64,000 nucleotides of DNA from Bacteroidota bacterium (GTDB taxonomy: Bacteria; Bacteroidota; Ignavibacteria; Ignavibacteriales; Ignavibacteriaceae). The DNA lies in assembly GCA_021813585.1 (NCBI GenBank), contig JAKAJV010000117.1, positions 1 through 64,000 of the forward strand. Reading direction: 5' to 3'. The notes under the pieces are model-generated. The model ran no database searches, was not told where the DNA came from, and saw only the letters and a list, made by a program, of their open reading frames with translations. Shown here piece after piece: positions 39,202 through 64,000 of this stretch. Positions within the stretch are counted from its first letter, which is position 1; every line of letters starts with the position of its first letter. The position numbers and the translations under genes are program-made.

Positions 39202-39243
39202 AACTAGTTTTTATTGAGCCAATTTTTATTTATTATTCAAAAA

Positions 39244-41115
39244 ATGATAAGAATAAATTTTAGATTTCCCGTCATCTTAACGGCAGTGCTATTGCTGATT
39301 ACTCATTTAGTAACTGCTCAAACATTCGCAATTAAAGGCAGAGTGTCAACATCAGCATCGCCGGTAAGATATGCCGGTGTAACCTTTCTTGATAACAGCG
39401 ATACAACATTAAAGTTCGGTTGTCTCACCGATTCTTCCGGGAACTATGCACTTAATTTAATAACTGCGGTTCAGCCTCAAAGCCAGCTGCCTACAAAATT
39501 TAAATTGGATCAGAATTATCCCAACCCGTTTTCATCCTCCACTACAATACCATATAAACTTGTAAATCGATCTACTGTTCGGGTAACCATATACGATATT
39601 CTCGGAAGAGTAGTTAGAAAATTTTCCGTAGGCTCTCAAGCAGCAGGCATCCACAGCATACTTTGGGATGGTAAAAATACATTTGGAGAAACCGCAGCAG
39701 GCGGAGTCTATTTTTACCGTCTTCAAGCAGGAGGCGAAGACCAAGTTAAGAAAATGGTTTTTGATCAAGGGGTAAAATATATTAGCGGTCCTTCAACACA
39801 ATCGTTTACCTTCCGGACTTTGAATGCCGCGACTCCAAATAAATTAATTCAATCAGGAATTTATACTGTTCAGATAGTTAATAACGACAGCACATCTCCG
39901 GCTGTAATTCCGCAGCAGGTTGATAACGTAGTAATTCAGAGTGATACTACTTTGAATTTTGAAGTAAACAGTACTAACCGGGTTACCGTTTATTTGGACA
40001 GCACACAACAGATAATAAGAGGTTTCGGCGCTGCAAACATACTGCCCTGGCGGCCGGATATGACCACCGCCGAAGTGAATACCGCATTTGGAAACGGACC
40101 TGGGCAGCTCGGGTTTACAATACTTCGCTTAAGGATTCCTTATACCGGCAATACGAGTGATTTTAACGCTAATATCCGAACGGCTAAATTAGCAGAATCG
40201 CTCGGTGCGATTGTGTTTGCTACGCCGTGGACTCCTCCGCCTTCAATGAAGAGCAATAATAATATTGTAGGCGGCTCGCTTAATGATGCATCTTATGCGG
40301 CGTATGCAGCCTATTTAAAATCGTTCGCCGATTATATGGCAAGCAACGGGGCTCCTTTGTATGCAGTGTCTATTCAAAACGAGCCGGATGCTAATGTAAA
40401 CTACGAATCGTGCTATTGGAATGCAGACCAGTTCCTTAGCTTCTGCAAGAATAACGCAGCGTCCATCGGCACAAGAATAATGATGCCCGAATCTCAAAAT
40501 TTCGTTCACGCATTATCTGATCCCACTCTCGAAGATTCTGCTGCAGCTTCACATGTTTCAATTATAGCAGGGCACATTTACGGCGGCGGGCTTGTACCGT
40601 ATCCGCTGGCTGCTGCAAAAGGTAAAGACCTTTGGATGACTGAACACCTTGATCTGGATACTACCTGGACAGGCAGCTTTGGTACGGGCATGGAGATAAA
40701 CAATTGTTTGAATGCCGGCATGAACGCGTACGTGTGGTGGTATATTGTAAGATTTTACGGACCGATTGGCGAGAACGGAAATGTTACCAAGCGCGGTTAT
40801 GTTATGGCACAGTATTCAAAGTTCGTTCGCCCGGGCTATTATAAAATTAAATGCAGCCCCACGCCGCAAAGATATGTTTACCTTACTTCGTATAAAGATC
40901 CGTCGTCATCAAAAGTAGTAATAGTAGCTTTAAATACCGGTTCATCTCCGGTTTATCAAACCTTTTCAATTGAAAACGGAGCCGTGACTTCTTTTACTCC
41001 TTACACTACATCGGCAAGCAAGAACTGTGAAGAAGGAAATAGCATTACTGCGGCCGGCGGAAGCTTTACAGCCGTTCTGCAGCCGTCTAGTATAACAACT
41101 TTCGTCTCAAATTAA
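39244..41115 (+). CDS. GH30 (subfamily 8-like) glucuronoxylanase with N-terminal regulatory-like and internal T9SS-sorting-like domains
   Basis: GFGAANILPWRPDM..., ATPWTPPPSMKSNN, VSIQNEPDANVNYESCYW, LWMTEHLD, VWWYIVRFYGPIGENGNVTKRGYVMAQYSKFVRPGYYKI. Confidence 0.87.
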   Translation: MIRINFRFPVILTAVLLLITHLVTAQTFAIKGRVSTSASPVRYAGVTFLDNSDTTLKFGCLTDSSGNYALNLITAVQPQSQLPTKFKLDQNYPNPFSSSTTIPYKLVNRSTVRVTIYDILGRVVRKFSVGSQAAGIHSILWDGKNTFGETAAGGVYFYRLQAGGEDQVKKMVFDQGVKYISGPSTQSFTFRTLNAATPNKLIQSGIYTVQIVNNDSTSPAVIPQQVDNVVIQSDTTLNFEVNSTNRVTVYLDSTQQIIRGFGAANILPWRPDMTTAEVNTAFGNGPGQLGFTILRLRIPYTGNTSDFNANIRTAKLAESLGAIVFATPWTPPPSMKSNNNIVGGSLNDASYAAYAAYLKSFADYMASNGAPLYAVSIQNEPDANVNYESCYWNADQFLSFCKNNAASIGTRIMMPESQNFVHALSDPTLEDSAAASHVSIIAGHIYGGGLVPYPLAAAKGKDLWMTEHLDLDTTWTGSFGTGMEINNCLNAGMNAYVWWYIVRFYGPIGENGNVTKRGYVMAQYSKFVRPGYYKIKCSPTPQRYVYLTSYKDPSSSKVVIVALNTGSSPVYQTFSIENGAVTSFTPYTTSASKNCEEGNSITAAGGSFTAVLQPSSITTFVSN

Positions 41116-43122: not shown

Positions 43123-45273
43123 ATGTATTCATGGAAGTACATATTGATCGCCGTAACTATCCTGGCAATTAAAGCCGCGGGCCAGAGTAACCCGTACTCA
43201 AACGGCTGGAAGCAATTAGATGATTATTATAATATTCGGGATACAATAACCGAGGCAAGAAAAACATGGATGGCTGATAACGGAAACGGCACATTCACCA
43301 ATCCGATTTTTTACGATGAGTTTTCCGATCCCGATATAATCCGCGTGGGTAACGATTATTTTTTAACCGGCACCACAATGCATGCAATGCCCGGCTTGCC
43401 TGTGCTGCATTCAAAAGATCTTGTTAACTGGGAATTTCTTGGCTACGCATGCAATAAACTTGATCTGGGCCCTGAGTTCAGGTTAGAAAACGGAAAAGAT
43501 ATTTACGGGCAGGGAATTTGGGCGCCCTGTCTCCGCTTTAACAACGGCAAGTTTTATATATTCTCAAATGTCAACAAGAAAAAAACTCAATTGTTTACCG
43601 CTAATAATCCCGCCGGGCCATGGGGACATTCACATATGAAAGTTTCGCTTCACGATCTATCGGTTCTTTTTGATGACGACGGTAAGGTTTACGTAGTTTG
43701 GGGATATGACGAAATAAAAATGGCTGAGTTAAATAATGACCTGACGGATATTAGGCCCGGAACGGAGAAGACAATAATTCCTAAAGGAAGCGGAGCCGGC
43801 GAGGGAAGCCACTTTTATAAAATTAACGGCAAGTATTACATTGTTATGGCAAACTGGGATCCCGTTTGTTACCAGGTTTGTGCAAGGGCAGATAAGCCTT
43901 ATGGCCCTTATAAACTAAGACTGATGTGCACGGAGAATTTCGGACTTGGTACCGGCTGGAGATTAGCTTACGCGGGCAAAGAAGGGCAATTTGATTTGGT
44001 TCCTCCGCGCAAAAACTTTGTCGGCTGCGTTACTCTTCATCAAGGCGGCATAGTGCAAACCCAGACCGGAGAGTGGTGGGGATTTTCGATGATGGACCAC
44101 AACTCGATAGGCCGTCTGTTTTGCTTATCGCCCGTTACCTGGAAAGAAGGCTGGCCGTTTACGGGATTGCCCGGCAACCTTACCAGAGCGCCTCTAACAT
44201 GGGTTAAACCAAATACCGGTTTTACTTCCAAGCCGGAAGCTCCGTATAACCGCAGCGATAATTTTTCAGGTGCAAGGCTAAAGCCGGTCTGGCAGTGGAA
44301 CCATGTTCCGTCTGATAAAAATTGGTCGTTAACCGAGCGCAAGGGATATTTGTGCCTGCGGTCTTTGCCTGCAGAAAATTTTTGGCATGCTAGGAATTCG
44401 CTTACCCAGCGGGCAATAGGGCCCGAATCTTTTGCGACAACCGAACTGGACGCCGAAGGATTGACTGAAGGCGATATTGCCGGTCTCGCCCTCTTAAATT
44501 ATCCCTATGCCTGGATAGGTATTGTTCAAAACAGCGGAAGCTTTGAAGTTCAACAATTTGATGACAGGACAAACAAGCTTGAGAGAAAAAAAATTAATAC
44601 GCCGCAAGTCTGGCTGCGGGTTCATTGTAATTTCGATGATGAATTTGCATGGTTCAGCTACAGCACCGATGGAAAAAAGTTTCTGCCGCTCGGAGAAAAA
44701 TTTATAATGGTGTTCCAGTTAAAAACATTTCAGGGGGTGCGGTTTGCATTATTCAATTTTAATGTGAAAGGAATTGAAGGCGGAACAGCAGCGTTTAATG
44801 ATTTCGTGGTTTATGAACCGCGTCCCTTCGGCCTGACAAAACCTATTCCGTACGGACAGACGATAACATTTACAAATCTTGCCGACAGCTCAGTGCTGGT
44901 AAACTGGAAAGATTTTCTTAGACCGGTTCCGTTGAACAGTCAGTTGGCAAAAGGCGCCGCTTCTCATTTTAAAGTTATTGATAAAGGCAGAGGACGAGTC
45001 GCCCTTCAATCGGAAACCGACGGCGGTTTTGTTTCGGTAATTGATAAGGGAAGAATGAGCGAAGTGAGGATAGGAAAAAATGAAGGGCGTAAAGCTTCAA
45101 CGTTTCAATGGGAAGATATGCAGCGCGGCGATCTAATGCTGATGTCGTTGAAAACGCATCGTTACCTTTTTGCGGATCCTCATGCGGGAAGCCTCTGCTC
45201 TGCCGGTTCACCCGGTACAAGACCTGATAGAAGGGACGGCTCTTGCTTTGTGTGGACGGAGTCGATCAAATAG
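43123..45273 (+). CDS. GH43 family glycosidase (beta-xylosidase/arabinofuranosidase-like) with C-terminal beta-sandwich domain
   Basis: TNPIFYDEFSDPDIIRVGNDYFLTGTTMHAMPGLPVLHSKDLVNWEFLGYA; GAGEGSHFYKINGKYYI. Confidence 0.87.
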   Translation: MYSWKYILIAVTILAIKAAGQSNPYSNGWKQLDDYYNIRDTITEARKTWMADNGNGTFTNPIFYDEFSDPDIIRVGNDYFLTGTTMHAMPGLPVLHSKDLVNWEFLGYACNKLDLGPEFRLENGKDIYGQGIWAPCLRFNNGKFYIFSNVNKKKTQLFTANNPAGPWGHSHMKVSLHDLSVLFDDDGKVYVVWGYDEIKMAELNNDLTDIRPGTEKTIIPKGSGAGEGSHFYKINGKYYIVMANWDPVCYQVCARADKPYGPYKLRLMCTENFGLGTGWRLAYAGKEGQFDLVPPRKNFVGCVTLHQGGIVQTQTGEWWGFSMMDHNSIGRLFCLSPVTWKEGWPFTGLPGNLTRAPLTWVKPNTGFTSKPEAPYNRSDNFSGARLKPVWQWNHVPSDKNWSLTERKGYLCLRSLPAENFWHARNSLTQRAIGPESFATTELDAEGLTEGDIAGLALLNYPYAWIGIVQNSGSFEVQQFDDRTNKLERKKINTPQVWLRVHCNFDDEFAWFSYSTDGKKFLPLGEKFIMVFQLKTFQGVRFALFNFNVKGIEGGTAAFNDFVVYEPRPFGLTKPIPYGQTITFTNLADSSVLVNWKDFLRPVPLNSQLAKGAASHFKVIDKGRGRVALQSETDGGFVSVIDKGRMSEVRIGKNEGRKASTFQWEDMQRGDLMLMSLKTHRYLFADPHAGSLCSAGSPGTRPDRRDGSCFVWTESIK

Positions 45274-58185: not shown

Positions 58186-58199
58186 AAATTATTTTGTCT

Positions 58200-59453
58200 A
58201 TGGAAAGGAAAATTTTTTTTTTCATATTAATATTTCCAGCCATCGTTTGTGCAGGGAATAAAACTTCACCCGGTACTTCTGCTTCCGGGAAATACCCCAA
58301 CCTGTTTGTAGAGCTGCTGCATAAAAGCCGGCCGCAGGTCATGTCTAAAATCGACAGCGCATTCAGCCAATTATTTTACGGCGACGATAAAACTCAGAGG
58401 GTATTCTATCCCGCCGGTTCGGATATGGGTTACATAGAGGATATCAACAACCTGGATGTCCGCACCGAGGGTATGTCCTACGGTATGATGATAGCGGTTC
58501 AGTTGAACAAAAAGGAACTGTTCGACAGGCTTTGGAAATGGGCAAAGACCTACATGCAGTTCCAAAGCGGGCAGCATAAAGATTTTTTTGCATGGCACTG
58601 CAATACCGACGGGACAGTACTTGATTCAAGCTCCGCATCCGACGGCGAGCAGTGGTTCGTTATGTCTTTATTTTTCGCCGATGCAAGGTGGGGGAACGGC
58701 GGCGGTATTTTTAATTATAAAACCGAAGCTCTAAAAATCCTGGATGCAATGCTGTCCAAATCCGATTCTTCGGACAGCGGGGAAGTAGTTACCAATATGT
58801 TCAACAAAAATTACAGGCTGGTAGTTTTTGTTCCCAACGGAAAGGCCGACGGCTTTACCGATCCGTCGTACGTGCTGCCTCACTATTACGAGCTTTGGGC
58901 AAGATGGGCAGATAAGAATAATAACTTCTGGTGCGAGGCAGCTCGGGCAGGAAGAAAATTTTTAAAAGCTGCTGCCGATACCATTACAGGTTTAACTCCG
59001 GACTATTGCAGATTTGACGGTAAGCCTTTAAAGTGGCTGGCTGGGGGTCATAACAATTTTCAGTACGATGCATGGCGCGTTGCGATGAATGCAGCAGTTG
59101 ATTATCAATGGTTCGGAAAAGATAAGTGGGAAGTTACCGAATGCAGCAAGCTTCAGGATTTTTTTTACTCCCAGGGCTTAAGCAGCTACGGCAACATTTT
59201 TACTTTAGACGGTAAAAAATTATCAAGCAGCCACAGCGCAGGCCTTGTTGCAATGAACGCTGTTGCCTCCCTGGCTTCCGACTTTAAGAATAAAAAAGAT
59301 TTTGTCGAGGAATTATGGAATGCCCCTGTACCGGAAGGTAGATACAGGTATTACGACGGAATGCTTTATATGCTGGCTATGCTGCAGGTGAGCGGCAATT
59401 TTAGGATTTATGATCCTCCGGGAAACCATGTTACCAAATGTACGAACGATTAA
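58200..59453 (+). CDS. GH8 glycosidase, probable reducing-end xylose-releasing exo-oligoxylanase
   Basis: DVRTEGMSYGMMIAVQLNKKELFDRLWKWAKTYM, FFAWHCNTDGTVLDSSSASDGEQWFVMSLFFADARWG. Confidence 0.87.
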   Translation: MERKIFFFILIFPAIVCAGNKTSPGTSASGKYPNLFVELLHKSRPQVMSKIDSAFSQLFYGDDKTQRVFYPAGSDMGYIEDINNLDVRTEGMSYGMMIAVQLNKKELFDRLWKWAKTYMQFQSGQHKDFFAWHCNTDGTVLDSSSASDGEQWFVMSLFFADARWGNGGGIFNYKTEALKILDAMLSKSDSSDSGEVVTNMFNKNYRLVVFVPNGKADGFTDPSYVLPHYYELWARWADKNNNFWCEAARAGRKFLKAAADTITGLTPDYCRFDGKPLKWLAGGHNNFQYDAWRVAMNAAVDYQWFGKDKWEVTECSKLQDFFYSQGLSSYGNIFTLDGKKLSSSHSAGLVAMNAVASLASDFKNKKDFVEELWNAPVPEGRYRYYDGMLYMLAMLQVSGNFRIYDPPGNHVTKCTND

Positions 59454-59473: not shown

Positions 59474-62461
59474 ATGAATTTAACCGGCGGCAGAAATTTT
59501 ATCAGAAAGAAATTAGTAAAGCAAAATTGTGTACAGCATAGACTTGCTGTTATGTTTTCGGCAGTTATTTTATCGTTATTAACCGGCTTGGTACCAATCT
59601 TCGCGCAAAATGTAGATTCATATATAGGCTTTAATAAAGAGAATGGCTGCTTCGCAATTTCAGCCGGCGGTAAATCAACTCCGTTATATATCGGCAAGGA
59701 AGACTATCCGGGAGTTATCCGCGCGCTGGGCGACCTTCAAAACGATATTGGTAATGTAACTAATACAAAGCCCGCGCTGTCAATCGGCGCTGTCCCCGAA
59801 TCGGATTATTTGATTATTGCAGGTACGCTTGGTAAAAGCCACGTTGTAGATAAACTGGTTAAGGAAAAAAAAATAGACGTCGATGGAGTTGCAGGCCAAT
59901 GGGAAGCGACGGCAATTCAAATTGTCGATAATCCTTTGCCGGGTGTAAAGCGCGCATTAGTCATAGCGGGCAGCGATAAGCGCGGAACGATATACGGGAT
60001 TTACGATATCTCGAAAAATATTGGCGTTTCACCCTGGTATTGGTGGGCAGACGTGCCTGCAAAAAAACATTCAGCTCTTTATGTAACGCCGGGTAATCAT
60101 AAGCTTGGTCCGCCGGCCGTTAAATACAGGGGCTTTTTCATAAATGATGAAGCGCCCTCGTTAACCGGATGGGCTTATAAAAAATACGGCGGGCTCAATC
60201 ATCATTTTTATGAAAGGGTATTTGAGCTATTGCTAAGGTTAAAGGCAAATTATTTATGGCCAGCAATGTGGGACAATAATTTTGACGACGACGATCCGCT
60301 GAACCAGAAGCTTGCCGATGAGTACGGGATAGTAATGGGTACTTCGCACCACGAGCCGATGATGCGCTCTTGGAAAGAATGGCCTAAGTACGGACACGGC
60401 GATTGGAATTACCAGACCAACGACAGCACGCTTAGAGAATACTGGCGGCAAGGCATTAAGAGGATGAATAATTATGAAAGCATAATAACCCTGGGTATGC
60501 GCGGCAACGGCGACGAGGCGATGAGCCAGACTGCAAATATCGGCTTGCTGGAAAGAATAATTTCCGATCAAAGAAAAATTATTGGCGAGGTTACAGGCAA
60601 GGATGTAACTACAATTCCGCAGGTTTGGGCGCTCTATAAAGAAGTTCAGGATTACTACGACAAAGGAATGCGCGTACCGGATGATGTTACCCTGCTGTTA
60701 TGCGACGACAATTGGGGGAACCTGCGCAAGCTTCCTAACCTGCCTGCCGGTAAGCATGGACCGGATGCCAGGCCCCGCAAAGGCGGCTACGGAATTTATT
60801 ACCACTTCGACTTTGTAGGCGGCCCGAGAAATTATAAGTGGCTTAACACTAACCAGATTGAAAGGACCTGGGAACAAATGCATCTTGCCTACAAGTACGG
60901 CGTTAAGCAGATATGGATAGTAAATGTTGGCGATATTAAACCGATGGAATTCCCGATCAGCTTCTTTATGGATTATGCGTGGAACCCGGATAAAATAACT
61001 GCGCAGGATTTGCCTAAATATTATCAACAATGGGCGGCGCAGCAGTTCGGCAAAAAGTACTCAAAGCAGATAGCCAATATTTTAAGCATGTATACAAAGT
61101 ATAATGCAAGACGGAAGCCGGAGCTTCTTTCACCGGATACATATAGTTTAACTCATTACCACGAAGCGGAAACCGTGGTAGGCAGCTACAATAAGATTGC
61201 CGCAGAGGCTGAAAAGATTAATTCTGATCTTCCTAAGGAATACAAGGCCGCTTTCTATCAGCTTGTTCTTTATCCGGTTCTAGCCTGTGCAAATTTAAAT
61301 GATCTGTACGTAACAGCCGGACTAAATAACTTGTATGCGTTGCAGGGACGCGCTGCAACGGATAGCCTAGCTCTAGAAGTTAAAAAGCTTTTTCAAAAAG
61401 ATGCCGGGCTTTCCCATTACTATAATAAAGTTATGGCAGGCGGCAAATGGGACCACATGATGGACCAGACGCATATCGGCTATACAAGCTGGCAGCAGCC
61501 CGATTCGAACATAATGCCTGCAGTAAAAGAAATTACTCTTCCCGATTCATCATTAATGGGAGTTGCAATTGAAGGCACGGCCGAATGGCTGCCGGAAGAC
61601 GGCACAGGATTAACGCTGCCGGAATTTGATCCGTTCAACCGCCAATCATATTACATTGATATTTTTAACCGGGGCAGAATTCCTTTTAATTGCTCTATTA
61701 AAGCCGGAGATAAATGGATAAAGATCAGTTCACAATCAGCCGAAATTAATTTGCAGAAAAGAATATGGATAAGCGTTGATTGGCGTGCTGCGCCTGAAGG
61801 TGAGCATACCGTACCGATTACCATTACCGGCCCGAATAAAAGCAAGTTATTAGTATATGCAAAGGTTTTTAATCCCTCATCGCCTAAAAGGGATAATGTG
61901 AACGGATTTATTGAAAGCAACGGTTACGTTTCTATTGAAGCCGATAACTACACTAAAGCAGTCGGCTCGGCTTTAATCCATTGGCAGATAATTCCTAACC
62001 TGGGCAGAACAAATTCTTCAGTTACTCCGTTCCCGGTAACATCGGCGGCTCAAACTCCAGGCGGCAGCAGTCCCCATCTTGAATACAAGATTTATTTCTT
62101 TGGCAAAGGCGATGTTAAGGTAAGCGCATATTTTTCTCCGACTCTTAAATTTCATAACACCGATCTTCATTATGCAATTTCGTTTGATGACGGGAAACCT
62201 GTAGTAGTGAATATGACTCCGGATTCGAACTATGCTGATTTAAACCAGGACAGTCTGTGGAACCAATGGGTTGCCGGTAATATAAACATTGAAACAACAA
62301 CACTGAGCGTTAAGAATACCGGCGAGCATATTCTGAAGTACTGGATGATAGATCCCGGCATCGATCTTCAAAAGATAGTTATCGACGCAGGAGGCCTTAA
62401 GCAAAGCTACTTAGGTCCGCCTGAAAGCTTTTATAGAAATATTAATAAAGGACATAATTAA
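59474..62461 (+). CDS. GH115 alpha-(4-O-methyl)-glucuronidase
   Basis: KRGTIYGIYDISKNIGVSPWYWWADVP, RGFFINDEAPSLTGWA, LKANYLWPAMWDNNF, IVMGTSHHEPMMR, TLGMRGNGDEAM, IWIVNVGDIKPMEFPISFFMDYAWNP. Confidence 0.93.
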   Translation: MNLTGGRNFIRKKLVKQNCVQHRLAVMFSAVILSLLTGLVPIFAQNVDSYIGFNKENGCFAISAGGKSTPLYIGKEDYPGVIRALGDLQNDIGNVTNTKPALSIGAVPESDYLIIAGTLGKSHVVDKLVKEKKIDVDGVAGQWEATAIQIVDNPLPGVKRALVIAGSDKRGTIYGIYDISKNIGVSPWYWWADVPAKKHSALYVTPGNHKLGPPAVKYRGFFINDEAPSLTGWAYKKYGGLNHHFYERVFELLLRLKANYLWPAMWDNNFDDDDPLNQKLADEYGIVMGTSHHEPMMRSWKEWPKYGHGDWNYQTNDSTLREYWRQGIKRMNNYESIITLGMRGNGDEAMSQTANIGLLERIISDQRKIIGEVTGKDVTTIPQVWALYKEVQDYYDKGMRVPDDVTLLLCDDNWGNLRKLPNLPAGKHGPDARPRKGGYGIYYHFDFVGGPRNYKWLNTNQIERTWEQMHLAYKYGVKQIWIVNVGDIKPMEFPISFFMDYAWNPDKITAQDLPKYYQQWAAQQFGKKYSKQIANILSMYTKYNARRKPELLSPDTYSLTHYHEAETVVGSYNKIAAEAEKINSDLPKEYKAAFYQLVLYPVLACANLNDLYVTAGLNNLYALQGRAATDSLALEVKKLFQKDAGLSHYYNKVMAGGKWDHMMDQTHIGYTSWQQPDSNIMPAVKEITLPDSSLMGVAIEGTAEWLPEDGTGLTLPEFDPFNRQSYYIDIFNRGRIPFNCSIKAGDKWIKISSQSAEINLQKRIWISVDWRAAPEGEHTVPITITGPNKSKLLVYAKVFNPSSPKRDNVNGFIESNGYVSIEADNYTKAVGSALIHWQIIPNLGRTNSSVTPFPVTSAAQTPGGSSPHLEYKIYFFGKGDVKVSAYFSPTLKFHNTDLHYAISFDDGKPVVVNMTPDSNYADLNQDSLWNQWVAGNINIETTTLSVKNTGEHILKYWMIDPGIDLQKIVIDAGGLKQSYLGPPESFYRNINKGHN

Positions 62462-62699: not shown

Positions 62700-63686
62700 A
62701 TGAAGGACAAGGGCATGAATAAGTATAATTTTATTTCATCGTGCATAAGAAAAATTTTAGCGATATTAATTTTATTGCTATCCTTTTTGATGGTGAATTC
62801 ATCTTACTGCCAGATGGCCAAAAGCAAATTTGTAGGGAATATAATCGGAAGCTATATACCGAAGAATTTTACCGAATACTGGAACCAGGTTACTCCGGAG
62901 AACGCAGGCAAATGGGGAAATGTTGAGATAAAGGAAAACGTATTTGTCTGGGATACTCTGGACGCCATATATCGCTTCGCTTTGAAAAACAAACTTCCGT
63001 TTAAGTTCCATAATCTTGTCTGGGGCAAGCAGCAGCCGGTATGGATTAAGCATCTTGCCGATGCGCAGCAGAAGCAGCAGGTTAAGCAGTGGATAAGGCT
63101 TTGCGGCGAGCGGTATCCCAAGTCGTCTTTTGTAGATGTTGTTAATGAGCCGATACGGACAGAAGCGGACACCGCGTACCCGCCTTACTATAAGGCAATT
63201 GGCGGAAGGGGGCAGACCGGCTGGGACTGGGTTATCTGGTCGTTTGAACAGGCTAGAAAATATTTCCCCCGTTCGAAACTTATTTTAAATGAATACAATA
63301 TCCTGAGCGGAAGAAGGCCTATCGATACGCTGATCTACATAGTTAATCTTTTAAAGGCAAGAAAATTAATTGACGGGATAGGAATACAAGGGCACTTTTT
63401 AGAAGAAACAGATTCCGCCGACATACATAAAAGACTTGATAAACTGGCAGGACTCGGACTGCCTATTTACATTTCGGAATACGATGTGAATATTGCCGAC
63501 GATGCGAAGCAGCTGGCGATTTATAAAGAACAATTCCCGCTCTTTTGGAAGTGCAATGCTGTTAAAGGCATAACTCTTTGGGGATATATTCAAAATATAA
63601 TTTGGAGGAAAGACGCTTACTTGGTTCGTACAGACGGCACCGAACGGCCTGCCTTAAAATGGTTGAAGCAATATTTAAAAAAATAA
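62700..63686 (+). CDS. GH10 endo-xylanase, signal peptide, no T9SS sorting domain
   Basis: KFVGNIIGSYIPKNFTEYWNQVTPENAGKWGNVE, FKFHNLVWGKQQP, VDVVNEPIR, IYISEYDVNIADD, ITLWGYIQ. Confidence 0.93.
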   Translation: MKDKGMNKYNFISSCIRKILAILILLLSFLMVNSSYCQMAKSKFVGNIIGSYIPKNFTEYWNQVTPENAGKWGNVEIKENVFVWDTLDAIYRFALKNKLPFKFHNLVWGKQQPVWIKHLADAQQKQQVKQWIRLCGERYPKSSFVDVVNEPIRTEADTAYPPYYKAIGGRGQTGWDWVIWSFEQARKYFPRSKLILNEYNILSGRRPIDTLIYIVNLLKARKLIDGIGIQGHFLEETDSADIHKRLDKLAGLGLPIYISEYDVNIADDAKQLAIYKEQFPLFWKCNAVKGITLWGYIQNIIWRKDAYLVRTDGTERPALKWLKQYLKK

Positions 63687-63687
63687 T

Positions 63688-64000
63688 ATGAATGACGCAT
63701 CGGAAAAAATTGGCGTTTGCATAGAGCGCGGCAAGGTAAATAAATCCTCGCCTTACCCCGGCGATATGGCGGGGCAGGACGGGGCGGATGAATTGACTGT
63801 ATCCGCTCTTGAATGGGGAGTTACCCCGGATAAAATTTTAAGCGCCTGCAACATCGGCATGCAGAGGATAGGAGAGAAGTTCGGCCGGAACGAAGTGTTT
63901 GTACCCGAACTTTTAATGTCTGCCAAAGCGATGAATGCTGTAATGACGCATTTAAAGCCTTTCTTCCAGTCGGGCAATGTTAAAGCAAAAGGAAAATTTG
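63688..64000 (+). CDS. Corrinoid (B12)-binding methyltransferase protein, N-terminal helical domain; truncated by window end
   Basis: ATG one nt after the GH10 stop, open to the window end; SALEWGVTPDKILSACNIGMQRIGEKFGRNEVFVPELLMSAKAMNAVMTHLKPFF matches the MtaC/MtbC-type B12-binding-2 domain pattern. Absent from the supplied ORF track. Confidence 0.87.
   Translation, partial: MNDASEKIGVCIERGKVNKSSPYPGDMAGQDGADELTVSALEWGVTPDKILSACNIGMQRIGEKFGRNEVFVPELLMSAKAMNAVMTHLKPFFQSGNVKAKGKF

Follow-up and report, generated by a model that had tools for sequence, protein, structure and literature searches.

A cassette of corrinoid-protein and methyltransferase genes, directly downstream of a set of xylan-degradation genes in an Ignavibacteria genome, probably encodes the corrinoid-dependent O-demethylation of free 4-O-methyl-D-glucuronate (MeGlcA) derived from glucuronoxylan. 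We place the probability of this reading at roughly 0.78. It is built on observed gene content, gene order, conservation, co-occurrence and metal-site residues; the substrate, the direction of the reaction, the methyl acceptor and the reactivation chemistry are inferred, in the absence of biochemical or expression data. A sequence-only reading of the window (the 64,000-base stretch of DNA analyzed here) had proposed that xylan breakdown may be coupled to corrinoid-dependent capture of the 4-O-methylglucuronate methyl group, and phyletic co-occurrence and conserved clustering now support this proposal, on genomic grounds alone. The xylans of hardwoods and grasses carry 4-O-methylglucuronate as a major side chain, and to our knowledge no enzyme that removes the methyl group of this sugar has been characterized. 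If our reading is correct, the cassette would fill a missing step of hemicellulose catabolism, widen the scope of corrinoid O-demethylation beyond aryl ethers to include a sugar ether, identify a one-carbon source for plant-litter and sediment bacteria, and make the fate of the MeGlcA methyl group directly testable.

The cassette and its genomic setting

The window comprises bases 1-64000 of contig C74 (genome G000; 70,317 bases), such that contig and window coordinates are identical and a further 6.3 kb of DNA lies beyond the window end. The stop codon of the GH10 gene (TAA, 63684-63686) is separated by a single base from an ATG frame that begins at 63688 and leaves the window at 64000. The sequence-only reading had recognized a B12-binding_2 domain in this frame, and the contig bears this out: the gene, COR, is complete (63688-64353) and encodes a protein of 221 aa. 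The B12-binding_2 domain (residues 31-90, E 6e-13) is joined by the full B12-binding domain that was to be looked for past position 64000 (residues 102-207, E 9e-27). COR also contains the cobalamin motif DLHDIGKN, a match to the DxHDIG pattern that served as our criterion for a small corrinoid protein. Its phmmer relatives with solved structures include the trimethylamine and monomethylamine corrinoid proteins, the uncharacterized 4jgi, and MetH. Orthologues that are 66-76% identical to COR are found in many genomes with the gene order kept, indicating that COR is not a chance frame. An N-terminal stretch, VNKSSPYP..M.GQ.G, is common to COR and its close relatives and absent in two other aligned corrinoid proteins.

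Upstream of COR, most of the xylan neighbors named in the sequence-only reading stood up to profile searches, with strong matches for GH115 and GH10 and additional support for GH8 and GH43 (Table 1). The exception was the GH30-type TIM barrel, which was matched only weakly, in a long ORF at 39214-41115. This ORF has a TTG start and joins a secretion-tail region to the weak GH30 match; its true start probably lies downstream of the listed one. Promoter matches were no more numerous than in shuffled sequence (15 versus a mean of 15.6), and we do not argue operon limits from promoters.

Table 1 Features of the xylan locus and the adjoining corrinoid cassette, in contig coordinates.
Feature	Coordinates	Strand	Support
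GH43 enzyme of the xylan locus	43123-45273	+	Pfam Glyco_hydro_43 E 9e-43, GH43_C2
GH8 enzyme, xylan chain cleavage	58194-59453	+	Pfam Glyco_hydro_8 E 1e-31
GH115 alpha-glucuronidase, expected to free (4-O-methyl-)glucuronate from xylan	59474-62461	+	Pfam Glyco_hydro_115 E 5e-156, GH115_C
GH10 xylanase, stop one base 5' of COR	62700-63686	+	Pfam GH10 E 7.5e-60, sequence
COR, corrinoid protein	63688-64000 in the window (first 313 of 666 bases); gene end 64353	+	B12-binding_2 and B12-binding, DLHDIGKN
ACT, MetH-type reactivation-domain protein	64476-65228	+	Pfam Met_synt_B12 E 1e-13
MTB, URO-D-superfamily methyltransferase	65419-66447	+	Pfam URO-D E 2e-34, H239-N-D241
URO-D2, truncated second URO-D protein (74-aa remnant)	66484-66708 (L005:4484-4708)	+	Comparison with relatives
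MFS carrier, hexuronate-type transporter	66698-68002	+	Pfam MFS_1 E 1e-67
UxuA, mannonate dehydratase	68015-69235	-	Above curated NCBIfam cut-off
SDR D-mannonate oxidoreductase	69335-70177	-	Above curated NCBIfam cut-off

Past the window end, the URO-D-like methyltransferase anticipated by the sequence-only reading is present (MTB), and none of the cassette genes there points to an unrelated role of the kind that would have refuted the proposal. The anticipated activase is likewise represented, by a gene for a reactivation protein of the MetH type (ACT) instead of a RACo-type activase; the window's genome contains no RACo_C_ter match. ACT has an RYSPGY motif, which we take to resemble the AdoMet-binding loop of MetH, and a C-terminal CxxCx5C. 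No Pterin_bind methylcorrinoid:H4folate methyltransferase (MT2) was found in the 6.3 kb past the window. Between ACT and MTB lies a MITE-like repeat of ~150 bp with inverted ends of ~16 bp (L005:3246-3398); it occurs again, inverted, at the contig end (L005:8191-8317; 75-nt arms, 97% complementary).

Two genes set this cassette apart from those of its relatives. Relatives such as L020 have a full-length URO-D2; in L023 it is matched only in three separate pieces, and here it is a remnant. Its His-x-Cys site suggests a putative thiol methyltransferase. The cassette also has no homocysteine methyltransferase gene, and no convincing remnant of one is present in the interval between COR and ACT (64354-64475). 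The nearest copy is on contig C54 and is 45-47% identical to the cassette members of close relatives. With one gene missing and another truncated, the cassette may be less capable than its counterparts; these defects, and the repeat between ACT and MTB, count against our reading. The genome has four matches to S-methyl_trans, the homocysteine methyltransferase family, including a full MetH-like ORF on contig C83. C54 carries a second corrinoid cassette (L006:7177-9903) that encodes a URO-D methyltransferase with the S-type site HTC, a corrinoid protein, and a homocysteine S-methyltransferase. Glucuronate isomerase, UxaC, is encoded on contig C13, in a stretch with KduI-, KduD-, and KDPG-aldolase-like frames that were recognized by reading only.

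We used two criteria for a URO-D-type O-demethylase MT1, one based on fold and one on the metal site. The first, a superfamily match together with a methyltransferase-type fold, is fulfilled by MTB. Its AlphaFold model is confident (pLDDT 94) and had its highest TM-scores with the methylcobalamin:CoM methyltransferase structures 4ay7 and 4ay8 (0.80-0.82); URO-D decarboxylases scored 0.71-0.79, although several rank first by E-value. Against the HemE model, MTB reached 59 bits (cut-off 303). The second criterion is that the Cys ligand or ligands are replaced by Asp/Glu or non-ligands, and MTB satisfies it: H239, N240, and D241 do not vary across an alignment of 29 sequences. In S-type URO-D paralogues, among them that of C54, the site reads His-x-Cys, and the Cys that is their third ligand aligns to a Gly of the MTB CGGG motif. 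S-methyltransferases of the URO-D superfamily use His-Cys-Cys, while O-methyltransferases exchange one or both Cys for carboxylates or non-ligands (PMC10418091). The predicted His-x-Asp site of MTB, with Gly at the third-ligand position, fits the rule for O-methyltransferases.

Association with alpha-glucuronidases and conservation of the cassette

We surveyed 199 genomes, all from one class, for MTB and xylan-degrading enzymes, with the MTB threshold (E 1e-60) fixed ahead of the glucuronidase searches. MTB was found in 22 genomes, GH115 in 19, GH67 in 17, and GH10 in 33. Every genome with GH115 also had MTB (19/19), as did 20 of the 21 with GH115 or GH67. Overall, 20 genomes from 14 genera had both MTB and a glucuronidase, 2 had MTB only, 1 had a glucuronidase only, and 176 had neither (Fisher p 3e-24). 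This value treats genomes as independent; when the genomes were approximately grouped by genus, it remained at 1e-15. Of the 33 genomes with GH10, 20 had both, 1 had only a glucuronidase, none had only MTB, and 12 had neither, indicating that MTB follows the release of (methyl)glucuronate and not xylan breakdown in general. The exceptions were G085 and G219 (MTB without a detected glucuronidase), G057 (GH67 without MTB), and G043, which has COR without MTB; there, the gene that comes after the one for the corrinoid protein encodes a YdjC-like protein and not a methyltransferase. In a sample of 298 genomes from the phylum, MTB was present in class members only. Glucuronidases were not counted in this sample, and it is hence silent on Bacteroidia that have one.

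Searching species genomes with MTB as the query yielded 194 relatives, and 80 loci were kept. The order COR, homocysteine methyltransferase (HCY), ACT, MTB recurs in Ignavibacteria and a few further groups next to GH115, GH10, or GH8, is often followed by URO-D2, MFS, UxuA, and SDR, and is conserved in several MAGs. The homocysteine methyltransferases found in this order retain the cysteines, in NC and GGCC, that are expected of a zinc site. A ~16 kb stretch from Fibrobacterota (L042) contains TRAP DctM, UxaC, COR, HCY, ACT, MTB, GH67, 6-phosphogluconate dehydrogenase, SDR, and PfkB, some of them separated by other genes. Of the 62 MTB loci that span 12 kb or more, 23 had a glucuronidase, 28 had a corrinoid protein, and 39 had at least one of the two. 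Many MTB relatives at 55-64% identity, mostly from Verrucomicrobiota and Planctomycetota, had neither in the DNA fetched, some of it on short contigs, and the substrate may not be uniform across the MTB family. The MTB tree has many weakly supported forks. In the Verrucomicrobiota loci L070, L078, L084, and L092, MTB relatives adjoin a porin-like gene and, in three of these, a tryptophan-synthase-beta-like gene, as recognized by reading only, without a glucuronidase. The loci L087, L096, and L097, from MAGs of Alphaproteobacteria and from Rhizomicrobium electricum DSM 21034, combine MTB with a corrinoid protein, RACo, and a gene resembling Hcy methyltransferases; R. electricum DSM 21034, as a named strain, could serve as a test organism.

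Within the survey, seven genomes of the class harbor a second MTB lineage that is ~34% identical to the first. Its loci, which vary in completeness, have a corrinoid protein of their own along with an HCY-like protein, MTHFR with DUF5981, Pterin_bind, an ACT-like protein, and RACo. GH67, GH10, and GH115 are likewise present in L103 and L104, and in two loci the cassette lies directly beside GH67 and GH115. The HCY-like protein is without the GGCC motif in L103-L108 and keeps it in L113; those of L103-L108 may not be homocysteine methyltransferases. That two lineages this distant are both tied to glucuronidases is hard to explain by chance neighborhood.

These distributions bear on the possibility that the substrates of the cassette are methoxylated aromatic compounds (xylan-attached ferulate or lignin fragments), as for the acetogen O-demethylases, and that its location reflects the common origin of xylan and these compounds in the plant cell wall. 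The known URO-D-type ether demethylases MtvB, OdmB, VdmB, and MtoB indeed use aryl methyl ethers (PMC13222342, PMC8630106), and reading alone picked out esterase-like genes in a few related loci. However, none of the 12 GH10 genomes without a glucuronidase has MTB, and MTB adjoins GH67 or GH115 in several phyla. Furthermore, the neighbors scanned are hexuronate genes (UxaC, UxuA, SDR, PfkB, and transporters), among which no aromatic catabolism gene was recognized. We therefore regard an aromatic substrate as improbable.

Proposed route and fate of the methyl group

In the route that we propose for MeGlcA, GH10, GH8, and GH43 would cut xylan, GH115 (GH67 in relatives) would free MeGlcA, and a hexuronate-type carrier would bring it into the cell. 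MTB would then move the 4-O-methyl group to the Co(I) of COR, yielding glucuronate and CH3-Co(III)-COR. Glucuronate could be processed by UxaC (from contig C13), the SDR D-mannonate oxidoreductase, UxuA, and KDPG aldolase. COR would most likely hand its methyl group to homocysteine, via the S-methyltransferase found in the cassettes of relatives; in the genome studied here a stand-in from elsewhere, such as the C54 copy or MetH, would be needed. COR that becomes oxidized to Co(II) would be reactivated by the MetH-like ACT. A 4-O-methyl group should chemically block C3-C4 retro-aldol cleavage at KDPG aldolase, and demethylation should therefore be needed somewhere before this enzyme and would unblock the hexuronate pathway.

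The genomic evidence all fits any methylated uronate-derived intermediate. The cassette could thus act on another O-methyl sugar that travels with glucuronoxylan, on MeGlcA still attached to xylo-oligosaccharides, or on 4-O-methyl-mannonate after oxidation. Nevertheless, the O-methyl sugar set free by GH115 and GH67 is 4-O-methylglucuronate, which makes the free acid the simplest substrate. We give these variants only a slim chance.

Our assignment of homocysteine as the methyl acceptor is inferred from gene content in relatives and is weaker than the case for demethylation; for the divergent lineage, gene content leads us to infer H4folate. By a rough estimate, the methyl supply from xylan is ~tenfold above the need for methionine. 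Homocysteine alone therefore looks too small a sink, and the excess methyl would need another fate. We tentatively suggest, at a little less than even odds, that the cassette is a split and re-targeted methionine synthase in which MeGlcA replaces methyl-folate as the donor and a xylan methyl ether ends up in methionine, and that the divergent lineage sends the methyl group to folate, such that there are two separate, undescribed routes of sugar-ether demethylation.

The correspondence of COR, ACT, and the relatives' Hcy methyltransferase to modules of MetH could also mean that the cassette is a methionine-synthase-like module, or one for sulfur/selenium methyl salvage akin to the widespread type 1 mlp clusters (PMC10418091), and a mere neighbor of the xylan genes. 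This is very unlikely: MTB does not have the His-Cys-Cys site of S-methyltransferases, the genome already has its full MetH-like ORF, and chance proximity would leave both the near one-to-one co-occurrence with glucuronidases and the two separate cassettes unexplained. Least tenable is the capture of methanol from methyl esters of glucuronate or pectin; methanol was also the alternative offered by the sequence-only reading. Corrinoid methanol systems exist (MtaBC) and COR weakly matches MtaC models, but methanol activation uses a separate MtaB family, no model of which (Pfam, NCBIfam) was matched by the cluster proteins, and the metal site of MTB, an MT1 of the O-ether-type URO-D class, has the pattern of URO-D O-methyltransferases.

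Relation to known corrinoid systems

Corrinoid O-demethylases with a URO-D methyltransferase have been described previously (PMC8630106, PMC13222342). These enzymes and the modules of MetH account for the parts of the cassette; their combination, the presumed sugar-ether substrate, and the tie to alpha-glucuronidases were not found in the literature searched, which consisted mainly of titles and abstracts and mostly did not cover subscription journals. Within the same limits, we found no literature link between 4-O-methylglucuronate and corrinoid chemistry. One co-mention of alpha-glucuronidase and corrinoids proved to be no link; the report states that Dictyoglomus turgidum makes no corrinoids.

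Type 1 mlp clusters (PMC10418091) likewise combine one or more URO-D methyltransferases with a corrinoid protein and have no H4folate methyltransferase. However, mlp enzymes have a His-Cys-Cys S/Se site, a Ram/RACE activase, and selenium/sulfur traits, whereas the cassette has His-x-Asp, MetH-type activation, and an alpha-glucuronidase; no Ram/RACE activase was found among the cluster proteins. Chloromethane dehalogenation by CdmBCA (PMC13222342) similarly relies on a URO-D MT1 and a corrinoid protein, and CdmB (9rui, E 2e-5) is one of the relatives of known structure matched by the MTB profile. It differs in its haloalkane substrate, its H4folate MT2, and an MT1 that is only distantly similar to MTB.

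The aryl O-demethylases (MtvABC of Moorella thermoacetica, OdmABCD/Vdm of Acetobacterium and Desulfitobacterium, and MtoABCD of Methermicoccus) resemble the cassette in their URO-D MT1, their small B12-binding_2/B12-binding corrinoid protein, and their dedicated reactivation protein, as well as in a nearby MFS transporter and an MT1 metal site that is not His-Cys-Cys. By contrast, the cassette has an aliphatic sugar-acid ether as its presumed substrate and sits among xylan and hexuronate genes. In addition, the window's contig end has no Pterin_bind (H4folate) MT2 and the genome no RACo; instead, the cassette has a MetH-like activation protein and, in relatives, a homocysteine methyltransferase. 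MetH itself has corrinoid, activation, and, when relatives are considered, homocysteine modules that match cassette proteins. In the cassette these modules are separate proteins, the pterin module is absent, and a URO-D methyltransferase stands in place of the methyl-folate module.
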